64,000 bases of DNA, taken from the NCBI RefSeq assembly GCF_000012625.1, contig NC_007516.1, positions 2,170,001-2,234,000 of the forward strand, read 5' to 3'. Source of the stretch: Synechococcus sp. CC9605. Its GTDB lineage: Bacteria; Cyanobacteriota; Cyanobacteriia; PCC-6307; Cyanobiaceae. This document shows positions 6,193-11,631 of the stretch, in pieces. The translations under genes were made by a program, and so were the position numbers. Numbering within the stretch: the first letter of the stretch is position 1; each line of letters starts with the position of its first letter. Below the pieces are notes generated by a model that worked only from the letters and a program-made list of their open reading frames with translations, searched no databases and was not told the DNA's origin.

Positions 6193-7878
6193 TCAGAACT
6201 TGAAGGTGGTCTGCACCAGGCCACCGAAGACGCCGAGGGACTTGTAGTCGCCGTTGACGTTCTGGGTGTTGTCACCGAAGGGACGGCTCAGCCAGTACAC
6301 AGCAGGGGTGATCTGGATGTTGTCGGTGACCTGGAAGCTGTACCAGAGCTCCATGGCGTAACCACCGTCAGCCACAAAGCCGTCTTCAACGTCATAGACG
6401 AACTGAGGCTGGCCCACGGCATAGCCCAGGGCATTGCCTTCGAGGAAGACATCGTTCCAGGTCAGACCCACCATCCAGCTGGCCATGGCCCGCTTATTGG
6501 TGTTGTCCTTCCAGGCATCGTTGCCGTTGAGGTAAGAGGCACCAACACCAGCGCTAATGGAAGGCATCCAGCCGGACTCCTCAGGACTCCAGAAGCCATG
6601 GAAAGACCAGCTGTGGCTGTCTGCGTTGGTGCGCTCGTCCTTACCGTCGACCTCAACGGTGCAAGGGGTGCCATAGGAGTCGCCGAGGGCAAACTGAGTA
6701 CCGGTCCGGAACCTGGCACCACACTGGCCGTAGCGATAACCGGCGGCCAAGCCCCACTGCTTGTTGCCGAAGGCAATCTGCGTGGTGATGTTGCCTTCGG
6801 AGTTGTCGGTCATGAAGCCACCCGTGTTGGGATTGCTGTCATTGCCCTCTCCCCAATCAGCCACATAACTGGCTGACAATGTGAAGTAGGGGTTGCCCTT
6901 CTCAACCTGCTTTTTGTTGCTGTAGAAAGCTCCGAAACCAGCACCGGTTTCCTTGTTCCAGACACCGGGAGTACCCAGGGAACCACCAAAGAAATCAAGC
7001 ACCTTGTCCCCGCCCCTGGCGTAGGCGCTGGCCTTGTAGCCCATCATCTCGGTGTTTCGGGTCGTAGGACCAACCTGGACGGTGAAGCTGTTGCCGAGTG
7101 GGAATCGATAGTAAAAACGATCGACTAGTAAGACATTATTGGTATCAAAATAGACATTAAGACTGCCGGGCCAATAAACAAATGGAGCCGCCTCAAACAC
7201 GTTGTACATGTTCCCGGCGCGCAGACGGGTGTACAGCAGATCCTTGCCGCTGAAAGAGGTCTTCAGCGCAAGACGCACGTCATAGCTGAAGGAGAAGCCG
7301 CCATATTTCGCGTTCCAGTCATCACGGGCACCCTTCTCTCCACCGGTGTTGTAGTTGTCACCTTTGGCGCGTGTCGCACCAGCCACCCAGTTACTTGTGC
7401 CACTGAGCTTGGTGGTGGTGGAGAACTGGGTGGCTTCCAGTTCGCCGACGCGGGCCTCGAGGCCGTCAACGCGACCCTTGAGGATGGCCAGCTCGGTTTC
7501 GAATTCCTTGAGCAGACGACGCAGCTCGTCGGTCACTTCAGTGATCCGGTCGAGGCAGGCGTTCAGCAGGGCAGCCGCTTCGTAGCGGGTCATCGCCCGG
7601 TTGCCACGGAAGGTGCCGTTGGGGTAGCCGGCGACGCAGCCGTAGGTCTCCACCAGGTTGGCCAGAGCCTGATAGGCCCAGTCGGTGGGGTAAACGTCAG
7701 AGAATTGGGTAACGCTGGTGACCTGATCAAGGCTGTTGCCACTGGCAGTAGCCGCGTAATCAGAAACGTCGTTGATGTTCAGCTCGGCGGCATTGGCTGC
7801 TGGGCTGTTGACAACAGCCAAAGGGGCCAGAAGGCCAAGGGCAGCAGGAGCCACCAGCAGTTGCTGGAAAAGCTTCAT
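6193..7878 (-). CDS. SLH-domain porin (SomA/B, OprB-like), first copy
   Basis: A 561-residue outer-membrane porin. Residues 1-32 are a signal peptide (MKLFQQLLVAPAALGLLAP, likely cut after ANA), an SLH domain covers about 57-110 (FSDVYPTDWAYQALANLVE, GCVAGYPNGTFRGNRAMTR), a coiled coil about 113-150 (TDELRRLLKEFETELAILKGRVDGLEARV), and the rest is a beta-barrel of the OprB type ending in aromatic VQTTFKF. Family knowledge: the SLH domain binds peptidoglycan-linked polymer and the barrel admits small solutes and ions. Its ribosome-binding region carries part of the Yfr1-pairing sequence. The N-terminal module is almost identical in DNA to the second porin. Confidence 0.93.
   Translation of the reverse strand: MKLFQQLLVAPAALGLLAPLAVVNSPAANAAELNINDVSDYAATASGNSLDQVTSVTQFSDVYPTDWAYQALANLVETYGCVAGYPNGTFRGNRAMTRYEAAALLNACLDRITEVTDELRRLLKEFETELAILKGRVDGLEARVGELEATQFSTTTKLSGTSNWVAGATRAKGDNYNTGGEKGARDDWNAKYGGFSFSYDVRLALKTSFSGKDLLYTRLRAGNMYNVFEAAPFVYWPGSLNVYFDTNNVLLVDRFYYRFPLGNSFTVQVGPTTRNTEMMGYKASAYARGGDKVLDFFGGSLGTPGVWNKETGAGFGAFYSNKKQVEKGNPYFTLSASYVADWGEGNDSNPNTGGFMTDNSEGNITTQIAFGNKQWGLAAGYRYGQCGARFRTGTQFALGDSYGTPCTVEVDGKDERTNADSHSWSFHGFWSPEESGWMPSISAGVGASYLNGNDAWKDNTNKRAMASWMVGLTWNDVFLEGNALGYAVGQPQFVYDVEDGFVADGGYAMELWYSFQVTDNIQITPAVYWLSRPFGDNTQNVNGDYKSLGVFGGLVQTTFKF
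7406..7729 (-). repeat. Paralogous repeat, copy A (SLH plus coiled-coil module)
   Basis: By my reading this 324-bp block matches 9167-9490 at a constant offset of 1761 bp with only four mismatches (at about 7432, 7516, 7611 and 7711). It encodes the SLH and coiled-coil part of the porin; sequence on both sides, including the barrel, diverges strongly. Confidence 0.9.
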
Positions 7879-8100: not shown

Positions 8101-9603
8101 TCAGAACTTGAACTGGGTCTTGATCAGACCGCTGAAGGCACTCATGCCGTTGGAGCCCTGCTCGGGGAAGGGCTTGCTCAGGTAGGTGAGCGCAGGAGTG
8201 ACAGAGATGTTGTCGGTGACCTGGAACTTGTAGAAGAGCTCGTAAGCGAAACCAGCTGCTTCGTTCAGATCACCATCATCGGATTGTGCAATCCAGGTGG
8301 GCTGACCGACAGCGAAACCGAGGGAGTTGCCTTCGATGAATGCATCGCTCCACTCAAGTCCGACGTACCAGGAATTGGTGTAAACGTCGTCGCTCAGGTA
8401 CTCAACGAAAGTTCCGCCATAACCGGTGCTGACGGAAGGAATGATTCCAGATTCCTCGGGCATCCACCATGCACTGATGCCAAAAGAGTTGCTGTTATCA
8501 GCTGCAGAAGCCGCTGCAGCACCAGCTGTGGCATTTCCGATGTAGAGGGATCCGCCACCTTCAGCACCAGATGCATAGGTGTATGCGGCAGCGATGCCCC
8601 AGTTCTCAGGCGCATAAGCGATCTGAGTAGTGGCATTTGCACCAGCACCATCAGTAAACATGCCACCCGTGTTGGGGTCGCTGGAGTTACCGTCAGTTGA
8701 AAGGTAGCTGGTGGAAATGCTGAAGTCGTTGGACGACCAGTAGATACCAGCACCAGCGCCGAGAGCCAGGTTGTAAGCACCAGGCACGCCGGCATAGGTG
8801 AAGAAGTCATACGTCATGGCAGCGGGATAAGCGCTGGGCCAGACCGGCAGCATGTCGTCCTGACGGACGCGAGGGCCACCAACCACGGTGAACTCGTCAC
8901 CGAGGGGGAAGCTGTAGTACAAACGGGCAATCTTGACGGTGTTGCCAGAGTCGAAGCCGTACTCCTGGGAGAACAGTCCGCCGTAGACGTTGTCCATGTT
9001 GCCCGAACGAAGTCGGGTGTAGAGGAGATCCTCACCGGTGAAGGAGGTCTCCAGGTTCAGCGCGAGGTTGTAGCTGAAGGAAGTACCACCGCTTTCAGCT
9101 TTGAATGCCTTGCTACCCTTATCCCAAGCAGTAGCAGCACCGAAGGCCCAGTCAGCCTTGGCTTTCAGCTTGGTGGTGGTGGAGAACTGGGTTGCTTCCA
9201 GTTCGCCGACGCGGGCCTCGAGGCCGTCAACGCGACCCTTGAGGATGGCCAGCTCGGTTTCGAATTCCTTGAGCAGGCGACGCAGCTCGTCGGTCACTTC
9301 AGTGATCCGGTCGAGGCAGGCGTTCAGCAGGGCAGCCGCTTCGTAGCGGGTCATCGCCCGGTTGCCACGGAAAGTGCCGTTGGGGTAGCCGGCGACGCAG
9401 CCGTAGGTCTCCACCAGGTTGGCCAGAGCCTGATAGGCCCAGTCGGTGGGGTAAACGTCAGAGAATTGGGTGACGCTGGTGACCTGATCAGCGGAAGCCG
9501 CGTAATCAGAAACGCCGTTGATGTTCAGCTCGGCGGCATTGGCGCCGGTGGCCAGAAGGCCAAGGGCGGCGGGAGCCACCAGCAGTTGCTGGAAAAGCTT
9601 CAT
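8101..9603 (-). CDS. SLH-domain porin (SomA/B, OprB-like), second copy
   Basis: A 500-residue outer-membrane porin with the same order as its neighbour: signal peptide (MKLFQQLLVAPAALGLLATGANA), SLH domain at about 44-97, coiled coil at about 100-137, then a beta-barrel ending in GLIKTQFKF. I chose the ATG before KLFQQLL because a GAGGA Shine-Dalgarno lies 6-7 bp upstream; an in-frame GTG 12 bp further up falls inside that site. Compared with the first copy the barrel is about 60 residues shorter and differs in loops, so the two may differ in selectivity. The Shine-Dalgarno overlaps a near-perfect Yfr1 pairing site. Confidence 0.93.
   Translation of the reverse strand: MKLFQQLLVAPAALGLLATGANAAELNINGVSDYAASADQVTSVTQFSDVYPTDWAYQALANLVETYGCVAGYPNGTFRGNRAMTRYEAAALLNACLDRITEVTDELRRLLKEFETELAILKGRVDGLEARVGELEATQFSTTTKLKAKADWAFGAATAWDKGSKAFKAESGGTSFSYNLALNLETSFTGEDLLYTRLRSGNMDNVYGGLFSQEYGFDSGNTVKIARLYYSFPLGDEFTVVGGPRVRQDDMLPVWPSAYPAAMTYDFFTYAGVPGAYNLALGAGAGIYWSSNDFSISTSYLSTDGNSSDPNTGGMFTDGAGANATTQIAYAPENWGIAAAYTYASGAEGGGSLYIGNATAGAAAASAADNSNSFGISAWWMPEESGIIPSVSTGYGGTFVEYLSDDVYTNSWYVGLEWSDAFIEGNSLGFAVGQPTWIAQSDDGDLNEAAGFAYELFYKFQVTDNISVTPALTYLSKPFPEQGSNGMSAFSGLIKTQFKF
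9167..9490 (-). repeat. Paralogous repeat, copy B (SLH plus coiled-coil module)
   Basis: Partner of 7406-7729; four mismatches in 324 bp by my count. The abrupt loss of identity at both ends points to recent gene conversion or strong selection on this module rather than recent duplication of the whole gene. Confidence 0.9.
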
Positions 9604-9606
9604 TGA

Positions 9607-9617
9607 ATTCCTCACAC
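9607..9617 (-). promoter_or_regulatory. Putative Yfr1 sRNA pairing site over the Shine-Dalgarno of the second porin
   Basis: The mRNA sequence GUGUGAGGAAU is complementary to the ultraconserved Yfr1 motif ACUCCUCACAC at 10 of 11 positions, 9 of them contiguous, and it contains the GAGGA Shine-Dalgarno of this gene. Pairing would block ribosome binding. In Prochlorococcus MED4 Yfr1 is known to repress two porin genes in this way. The yfr1 gene itself is not in this window. Confidence 0.7.
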
Positions 9618-9695
9618 AGGAAATAGGCGCAACTACGCCATCTCCAGATTTTGAAGGCTGCTCACTGGCCTACCAACGCCGCTTGTGCCGGTCCC

Positions 9696-9720
9696 TACAT
9701 CGACATGTATCAGTGGATAC
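9696..9720 (-). other. Two overlapping short inverted repeats upstream of the second porin
   Basis: TACAT-CGAC-ATGTA (9696-9709) and GTATC-AGTG-GATAC (9707-9720) share three bases, so only one can fold at a time in RNA. They lie about 95-120 bp upstream of the porin start. They could be an operator or part of a leader structure; both stems are only 5 bp, so chance is possible. Confidence 0.35.
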
Positions 9721-9756
9721 CGCCTCGAGCCGACGAACGATCCTCGAACAAACGAT

Positions 9757-9784
9757 GCCCCCGCCCGGAGATCCGGACGGGGGC
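9757..9784 (-). terminator. Strong GC hairpin, possible terminator of the tiny-ORF transcript
   Basis: A 12-bp stem (GCCCCCGTCCGG / CCGGGCGGGGGC on the minus strand) with one mismatch and a 4-nt loop, followed on that strand by ATCGTTTGTT. The T content is weak for a classic terminator, but with the hairpin at 9790-9816 it closes the segment after the 17-codon ORF. Confidence 0.5.
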
Positions 9785-9789
9785 TCTCG

Positions 9790-9816
9790 CCGGGTCCGCT
9801 TTTGCCGCGGAACCGG
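9790..9816 (-). other. Hairpin downstream of the tiny ORF
   Basis: CCGGTTCCGC and GCGGACCCGG on the minus strand form a 10-bp stem with one mismatch and a GGCAAAA loop. It sits 23 bp beyond the stop of the 17-codon ORF and 5 bp before the second hairpin at 9757-9784. Confidence 0.5.
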
Positions 9817-9838
9817 ATGATCAGTCAGAAGGCGCCGT

Positions 9839-9892
9839 TCAGCCGGCGTTCTCCGCGATCAGCAGACCCTGGGTCAAACAACTGGAAATCAT
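9839..9892 (-). CDS. Possible 17-residue peptide with strong Shine-Dalgarno
   Basis: An ATG opens a 17-codon frame, MISSCLTQGLLIAENAG, followed by TGA. The sequence AGGAGGAGGTG (9896-9906) lies just upstream at suitable spacing; it is one of the best ribosome-binding sites in the window, where most genes have none. The peptide is mildly hydrophobic in the middle and has one cysteine. The frame is open further upstream, but the Shine-Dalgarno argues for the internal start. Two GC hairpins follow. I do not recognise the peptide; it may be a small protein, a leader peptide, or part of a dual-function RNA. Confidence 0.4.
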   Translation of the reverse strand: MISSCLTQGLLIAENAG

Positions 9893-10035
9893 GGACACCT
9901 CCTCCTGAAGGATTGTGAATGCCGGCAACGCCTTCGGAACTGTGACCACCCCCCGAAGGAAGCGTTCACCTCTCCACGCCACTGCATCCTTAACACCCGG
10001 ACCATACTCAGTTTTTGACGTAATGAGGGGCATCC

Positions 10036-11631
10036 ATGCGCTCCGGCTCAGCTCCTGAACCAGCCCCCTGGGTCGCATGGGCAGGGCTGGGCTTGGCCGC
10101 TGCTGTGCTGGCCCTGGTCGGCCTCGACGGTCTCCCCCTGCGGGACTTCGATGAAGCCACCGTGGCCCGGGTGGCCCTCGAACTGCGCCACGGGCTCGGG
10201 GAAGCCCCGTTGCTGCCCACCCTCTGGGATAAGCCCTACCTCAACAAGGCGCCAGGTCTGCACAGCCTGATCGCCCTCGTGATCAGAGCAACAACGCAGT
10301 CCGATCAGCTCCCCTCGGAGTGGAGCATCCGCCTGGCACCGGCCATGCTTTCGTGCCTGGTGGTGCCGCTTGGTGGCTGGCTCCAATGGCTGCTGCGACC
10401 AGGGGATCGCTCCAGTGCCCTCTCCACCAGCGTAATCCTGCTGACGCTGTTGCCGGTGGCCCGGCACGGACGTCTGGCCATGTTGGATGGCACCCAGCTG
10501 ACGGCCACGGCTCTGCTTTGGCTGGCCCTGCTGCAGCTGAACCGCAGCCGCTGCAGCTCACTCTGGGGAGCCGTCGCCGGCCTGATGGCCAGCGCCATGC
10601 TGCTGCTTAAAGCCCCACTGCTGGTGCCCGCGGCGGTGGCCGCCGGTTTGGCGCTGGCATGGGGCCGGGAATGGAGAAGCTGGAACAACCGCCCTGCAGC
10701 CTGGCTCGGGATGATGCTGGGCCTAGCACCGGGAGTCGGCTGGCATCTCTGGCATGCCCACATCCGGGGGAGCGAAGCGCTCTGGCTCTGGGGCGGAGAT
10801 GGCGCCGGGCGGGTGCTTCTGGATGCTGGCGAAGGCAGTGATCTGGGATGGCGGGTCCCGCTAATCGAAGTACTGGAGGGGGGCTGGCCCTGGCTGCCGC
10901 TGCTGCCCTTCGCACTTGTCTGGGCCTGGCGACGGCGTCAGAGCCGCTGGGCCCGATGGTCCTTGGCCAGCCTGCTCACCCTGGCCGGGGCCATTCTTCC
11001 GCTGCGCACCCAGCTCCCCTGGTACAGCCATCCGCTCTGGCTGCCCATCGCTCTTCTCTGCGCTCCGCTGCTGGCCTGGCTGGTGGAGCGACCCTTGTCT
11101 TCAACGCGTGCACCGGAAAGCCCCAATCCCCCTTGGCGCTGGTTGCTGATGCAGCTTCCTTCGTTCTGGTGCGGGCTCGGACTGCTGCTCCTGCTGCTGG
11201 GGCTGGGCAGCTTCAGCAGCATCGGCGCAAGCCTTGTGCCCTATCGCGGCCTGGCGGCCGTGCTGGGCCTCGGCTGGTGTAGCGGCGGATGGTGGCTGCG
11301 CTCTGCAGCACCACAGCGACGACGCCTTGGGGTGATCAGCCTCAGCTGCGGCAATCTGGCAGCGCTGGCCCTGCTGTTTCACTCCCCCCTCTGGTTGTGG
11401 GAGCTCAACGAAACCTGGCACGTGCAACCGGTGGCAGCCCTGGCCAGAGCCAATACTGGAAGCGAGATCAAGCTGAAGGGTTACGACGAGCGTCCCAGTC
11501 TCAACTGGTACGCCGAACAACGCATTGAGCGTTTCAAAGGTGGCCCAGGCCGCCGTCTCAGCGACAAACCGCAGAAGGGCTGCATCACCGAAGGCCAAGC
11601 GGGGCGATGGACCCTGGCCAACTGTCGGTAG
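10036..11631 (+). CDS. GT-C family (PMT_2/ArnT-like) glycosyltransferase
   Basis: A 531-residue polytopic membrane protein. The first periplasmic loop has the conserved acidic motif RDFDE (residues 36-40) followed by TVARVALELRHG and LWDKPYLNKAPGLH, the hallmark of the PMT_2/ArnT branch that uses polyprenyl-phosphate-linked sugars on the periplasmic side. About 11-12 hydrophobic helices follow, and a C-terminal soluble part has LNWYAEQRIERFKGG. It is the first gene of a rightward run with a GT2-GtrA protein 23 bp downstream, which could make its lipid-linked sugar donor. Acceptor unknown (lipopolysaccharide, glycolipid or protein). Confidence 0.8.
   Translation: MRSGSAPEPAPWVAWAGLGLAAAVLALVGLDGLPLRDFDEATVARVALELRHGLGEAPLLPTLWDKPYLNKAPGLHSLIALVIRATTQSDQLPSEWSIRLAPAMLSCLVVPLGGWLQWLLRPGDRSSALSTSVILLTLLPVARHGRLAMLDGTQLTATALLWLALLQLNRSRCSSLWGAVAGLMASAMLLLKAPLLVPAAVAAGLALAWGREWRSWNNRPAAWLGMMLGLAPGVGWHLWHAHIRGSEALWLWGGDGAGRVLLDAGEGSDLGWRVPLIEVLEGGWPWLPLLPFALVWAWRRRQSRWARWSLASLLTLAGAILPLRTQLPWYSHPLWLPIALLCAPLLAWLVERPLSSTRAPESPNPPWRWLLMQLPSFWCGLGLLLLLLGLGSFSSIGASLVPYRGLAAVLGLGWCSGGWWLRSAAPQRRRLGVISLSCGNLAALALLFHSPLWLWELNETWHVQPVAALARANTGSEIKLKGYDERPSLNWYAEQRIERFKGGPGRRLSDKPQKGCITEGQAGRWTLANCR

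Follow-up and report, generated by a model that had tools for sequence, protein, structure and literature searches.

S. elongatus UTEX 2973 carries a northern-verified RNA of ~200 nt, Sye_sRNA1, which is reported to be the most abundant sRNA of that strain under control conditions (PMC6091082). Homologues have been confirmed in Anabaena 7120, PCC 7942 and Synechocystis (TU475 in 6803, TU2045 in 6714), and the Synechocystis homologues are described as being among the most abundant transcripts there (PMC6091082). The same report counts 53 homologues, most, though not all, of which lie behind psbD or cobB, and places the start sites of Sye_sRNA1 and somA in S. elongatus separately, ~2.7 kb apart (PMC6091082). 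The main text of that report mentions no open reading frame (ORF), Shine-Dalgarno (SD) sequence or peptide in Sye_sRNA1, and treats the RNA as non-coding.

Short frames within small RNAs are known from several other systems. The dual-function sRNAs SgrS/SgrT, SR1/SR1P and RNAIII (discussed in PMC5126843 and PMC1242208) each combine, in one stable RNA, a short SD-preceded ORF with conserved structure. In Synechocystis, NsiR6 and HliR1 were first called non-coding and were later shown to encode small proteins (PMC5126843). Marine picocyanobacteria possess the abundant RNA Yfr103, which is ~300 nt long and has seven paralogues in CC9605 (PMC5069720), and Prochlorococcus MED4 and SS120, to which Yfr6 is restricted by northern blot, possess this 244-nt RNA with a central frame of 33 residues (PMC1242208).

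Layout of the locus in Synechococcus sp. CC9605

The RNA gene described here lies on the minus strand of a 64-kb stretch of the CC9605 genome (the window), and all coordinates refer to positions within that stretch. A −10 promoter element, TATGGT, is found at 10001–10006, where TANNNT is invariant in 30 of 30 relatives, and from its position the 5′ end of the RNA is expected at about 9994. The gene as predicted by covariance model occupies 9745–9994 (~250 nt), a unit supported by the promoter at one end and by an intrinsic terminator (9745–9789) at the other. Between them lie a 5′ structural domain (9917–9989), the SD sequence AGGAGGAGGTG (9895–9906) and a 17-codon ORF, MISSCLTQGLLIAENAG plus TGA (9839–9892). 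The first-pass annotation had claimed an SD, an ATG, a 17-codon frame and a stop, all of which are present on the minus strand; AGGAGGAGG corresponds to 9906–9898 and is directly followed by GTGTCC, the start codon is at 9892–9890 and the stop at 9841–9839. Its further claim that so strong an SD is rare in the window is borne out, as there is a single copy of the 11-nt sequence AGGAGGAGGTG in the whole 64 kb and the 17-codon ORF has an anti-SD match of 8 nt versus a maximum of 7 nt among the 55 long ORFs examined in the window. A longer, 79-codon ORF in the same frame (9839–10078) was rejected, since it begins ahead of the promoter and, in relatives, indels disrupt its 5′ part.

Distribution and family membership

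By DNA search the element is matched in 29 of 59 relatives, and in an alignment of 30 matches the TANNNT box is invariant and the SD, ATG and terminator are conserved throughout. A covariance model (R1) built from 20 diverse members finds matches in 203 of 400 Cyanobiaceae genomes, representing 39 of 59 genera and nearly always in single copy, and in five genomes from other cyanobacterial families it matches over its full length. A pattern search by named contig returned 53 contigs, among them those of Synechococcus WH7803, Prochlorococcus MIT 0701, Cyanobium and Aphanothece. In distant members the sequence is GGAGGTGATGCCC-ATG-x-GAN-AGT-AGT-A. When a pattern with an unconstrained start codon, GGAGGTGNTGYCCN{3,20}AGTAGTA, was run on 388 genomes of the class, 214 were matched with zero control matches, and among the matches listed ATG or GTG stands directly in place in every one. 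GGAGG is present at a spacing of 5 nt in nearly all homologues, and in distant members the purine-rich stretch most often reads GGAGGTGAT, which complements the 16S tail over a long run. The structured RNA is thus conserved in the majority of cyanobacteria. More than 170 homologues were read, and every one of them except two damaged copies has a ribosome-binding site, start codon and short open frame. A sensitive search gave no match in ten Prochlorococcus-sized genomes of 1.7–1.9 Mb (G072, G065, G111, G094, G086, G059, G081, G034, G121 and G140), so that the RNA seems to have been lost in streamlined lineages. Phage records and viral contigs also contain no match to the element, and a phage origin was set aside.

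The gene upstream of the RNA in CC9605 is a divergent putative membrane protein gene, neither psbD nor cobB, and in this the locus differs from the published arrangement. The link is provided by the covariance-model homologues, of which eight have psbD upstream (L147, L149, L217, L218, L226, L227, L233, L234) and a further five have cobB (L148, L235–L238), the location described for Sye_sRNA1/TU475. The two also have in common a promoter and terminator of their own and a length of ~200–250 nt, and the conserved secondary structure of that family is found across the homologues. Judged from synteny and family membership, the CC9605 RNA is best assigned as a picocyanobacterial member of the known RNA family Sye_sRNA1/TU475 (PMC6091082). 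Within this family, published as non-coding, the conserved short frame appears to be undescribed in the published accounts consulted.

Other identities were considered and set aside. Rfam, searched at gathering and at relaxed thresholds, contains no family for the RNA; P15 (RF00627) scores 18.1 bits against a gathering threshold of 70, with a match that is essentially the terminator, and the match to SNORA77 covers the GC-rich terminator hairpin only. Yfr103 is a multicopy RNA, whereas the present element has a single match in the CC9605 genome (G000). Yfr6 resembles it in length and in having a central short ORF, but the frame of Yfr6 has 33 residues rather than 17 codons, and the sensitive search did not find the present element in the ten Prochlorococcus-sized genomes.

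RNA structure

The 5′ domain consists of an outer helix of 6 bp, a 1-nt bulge, an inner helix with a 4-nt bulge and a variable apical hairpin. When 98 homologues were folded independently to minimum energy, 65 gave this topology, with 36 different outer helices. Downstream, codons 8–17 of the ORF (9844–9869) form the 5′ arm of a long-range helix whose 3′ arm, CGGUUCCGCGG...AGCGGACCC (9792–9815), lies behind the stop codon. The SD and the start codon sit in the unpaired stretch that joins these two domains. Sequestration of the SD by the 5′ arm was considered and rejected, as it is seen in the minimum-energy fold of CC9605 but the 5′ folds from other clades give no sign of it.

Alignment pair counts show 97.8% of cells paired over the whole structure and 97.8–98.8% in helices 2–4, and the covariation score of 0.257 is above all slid controls (0.03–0.08). 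The folding z-score of the CC9605 RNA is −3.4. In the terminator, which is made up of outer CGA/UCG pairs, an internal loop and then GTTTG, 11 of 17 pairs show compensatory change, and in distant lineages CUA/UAG takes the place of the outer CGA/UCG. The two hairpins that the first-pass annotation placed behind the frame are in part confirmed: the one of 12 bp (9757–9784) is GC-rich and terminator-like, but the supposed 10-bp hairpin (~9791–9815) is the 3′ arm of the longer helix.

Conservation of the reading frame

Frame-breaking changes in relatives accompanied by loss of the SD, which had been named beforehand as evidence against a gene, are not what the alignment of picocyanobacterial (Cyanobiaceae) homologues shows. 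The 54-nt frame is free of indels and internal stops in 100 of 100 sequences, the single apparent gap (L160) being a frame that ends in TAG. Starts are ATG in 70 and GTG in 30, with nothing else, and stops are TGA in 97, TAA in 2 and TAG in 1. The suggestion that chance would hardly produce such an arrangement is amply upheld, given that SD, start, frame and stop are kept in all 100 homologues, far beyond chance. Within-column shuffling predicts 5.7 in-frame stops where none is observed, and none occurs in only 0.15% of trials. Synonymous change, by contrast, shows no excess in picocyanobacteria (0.27 versus a null of 0.266), and the residues of codons 2, 3, 6 and 7 vary freely. The missing enrichment is attributable to codons 8–17, which also form an arm of the conserved helix, and this RNA pairing explains much of the conservation of the C-terminal part of the peptide.

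Outside the picocyanobacteria an open frame is found at 74 of 74 distant loci, with 17–25 and nearly always 23 codons, the consensus M-x-[DE]-S-S-K-x-M-G-x-x-V-x-x-x-R-L-C-A-G-A-V-L and stops that are mostly TAA or TAG. The 63 distinct 23-codon frames contain no stop, where 10.5 would be expected (500 shuffles never gave fewer than 4). Their synonymous fraction is mildly enriched (0.326 versus 0.251, P 0.025), more clearly in codons 2–11 (P 0.005), and exceeds that of frames +1 and +2; these P values are indicative, as the distant set was gathered by a pattern that fixes codons 4–5 and homologues are related rather than statistically independent. Codon 3 specifies D or E with all four third bases in use, codon 8 M, L or V, and codon 12 V or I. 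A bias towards synonymous change, which the first-pass annotation had proposed looking for, is therefore absent within picocyanobacteria and mildly present elsewhere.

Two copies that stand outside the sets of 100 and 74 sequences are damaged. In L032, from the single-cell assembly Prochlorococcus AG-439-E13, the frame has a 1-nt deletion while SD, helix and terminator remain, which reflects either a sequencing error or real loss of the ORF. L166 (G089:C1:2023817-2024017) is a second, degenerate copy that has lost the SD and is broken at codon 3; it keeps the 3′ structure and terminator and is possibly an RNA-only paralogue.

NCBIfam and Pfam contain no entry matching the peptide. Taken as comparative sequence evidence, these patterns argue strongly for conservation of initiation, frame and termination and moderately for conservation of the peptide; initiation, frame and RNA structure are thus under selection, the peptide to a lesser degree, and the 17-codon frame is probably translated.

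Neighbouring genes

In CC9605 the RNA is followed, ~140 nt behind its terminator, by an SLH/OprB porin gene (som; 8101–9615, Pfam OprB and SLH) on the same strand. Many relatives likewise have a co-directional porin downstream, as distant cyanobacteria often do, but in many other relatives the next gene after the RNA is convergent; with a next gene this variable, the RNA stands alone. The proposal of a small-protein gene or dual-function sRNA ahead of the porins is accordingly supported by a stand-alone, deeply conserved and structured RNA that bears a conserved SD and ORF and is followed by a porin on its own strand, and the RNA is a candidate for the dual role.

Several features of this region deserve mention in their own right. 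Many marine Synechococcus carry cassettes of putative glycosyltransferase and membrane genes between RNA and porin, with a convergent first gene (loci L034, L037, L039 and L053). Downstream of the RNA in CC9605 two SLH/OprB porin genes stand in tandem (6193–7878 and 8101–9615), with nearly identical N-terminal regions. A perfect inverted repeat, TACAT-CGAC-ATGTA, lies between terminator and porin at 9696–9709 and is a possible regulator site; the inverted-repeat block CTGATACATGTCGATGTA...ACCGGCACA is conserved in close relatives in which the porin is adjacent. Positions 9606–9619, just upstream of the porin start codon (ATG at 9603), read CTGTGTGAGGAATT on the minus strand, and the porin 5′ UTR contains TGTGTGAGGA. 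The latter is complementary to the UCCUCACACA-type motif that is conserved in the sRNA Yfr1. Known targets of Yfr1 in Prochlorococcus MED4 include two porins (PMC6778093).

Proposed mode of action and alternative explanations

We consider it probable that the CC9605 RNA is a Sye_sRNA1/TU475 member and at the same time a micro-mRNA in which translation and the long helix are coupled. Its own promoter would give rise to a stable ~250-nt RNA whose 5′ domain is folded, and ribosomes would load at the very strong SD and the start codon exposed in the single-stranded link to make a peptide of 17–25 residues. Codons 8–17 would pair behind the stop in the long helix, and the terminator would close the RNA. 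As translation from codon 8 onwards must open this helix, peptide synthesis and RNA structure would be coupled, and the state of the RNA would depend on whether it is being translated. The element thereby resembles the dual-function sRNAs in its short SD-preceded ORF and conserved structure, and differs from them in that the ORF itself is one arm of the main helix. Compared with NsiR6 and HliR1, whose ORFs are longer, unrelated in sequence and shown by tagging to be translated, the present frame is known from sequence.

A variant of this proposal, which has a real claim to consideration while falling somewhat short of an even chance, is that the peptide is irrelevant and that ribosome binding or translation regulates the stability or structure of a trans-acting sRNA, a ribosome-controlled switch. 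The picocyanobacterial sequences agree well with it, as they lack synonymous bias, change freely at codons 2, 3, 6 and 7, and keep start, frame and stop while codons 8–17 are constrained as RNA; in other cyanobacteria, however, the synonymous enrichment in codons 2–11 and the residues kept beyond their nucleotides at codons 3, 8 and 12 speak for the peptide. That the RNA is a purely non-coding sRNA, with the SD-like stretch and AUG pairing with 16S rRNA or another RNA and the frame a by-product, is improbable. The family has indeed been published as an sRNA (PMC6091082), and the purine-rich stretch hardly varies and in its usual distant form complements the 16S tail at length, but pairing of this kind is hard to reconcile with a start codon whose first base is only A or G, with the use of three stop codons, and with 54 nt that lack indels in 100 sequences and are significantly short of in-frame stops.

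The position of the porin, in CC9605 as in distant cyanobacteria, could suggest that the RNA is a 5′ leader (attenuator) of som. This is largely refuted and very unlikely, in view of the convergent next gene in many relatives, the strongly conserved terminator and the reported distance of ~2.7 kb between the sRNA and somA start sites in S. elongatus (PMC6091082). Chance association of an ORF with an SD, which the shortness of the frame might invite, is refuted by the retention of SD, start, frame and stop across the phylum and has practically no probability left. The locus is therefore best regarded as a candidate dual-function RNA or micro-mRNA and not as a porin leader.

Implications

For the family as a whole, a bolder reading has nearly an even prospect of being correct, namely that a ‘non-coding’ RNA ranking among the most abundant in cyanobacteria is a translated gene for a phylum-wide microprotein of 17–25 residues, with its ORF in the main helix and translation switching the structure. 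Sye_sRNA1/TU475 is highly abundant, yet the published accounts found give no function for it. The conserved start, frame and stop shift the question from the pairing partner of an sRNA to translation and to the role of the peptide or of its translation, a question that can be put to a direct test in strains amenable to genetics. If the reading is right, cyanobacteria would possess a phylum-wide micro-gene of 17–25 codons that annotation pipelines have missed, within an RNA whose coding half doubles as its main structural arm.
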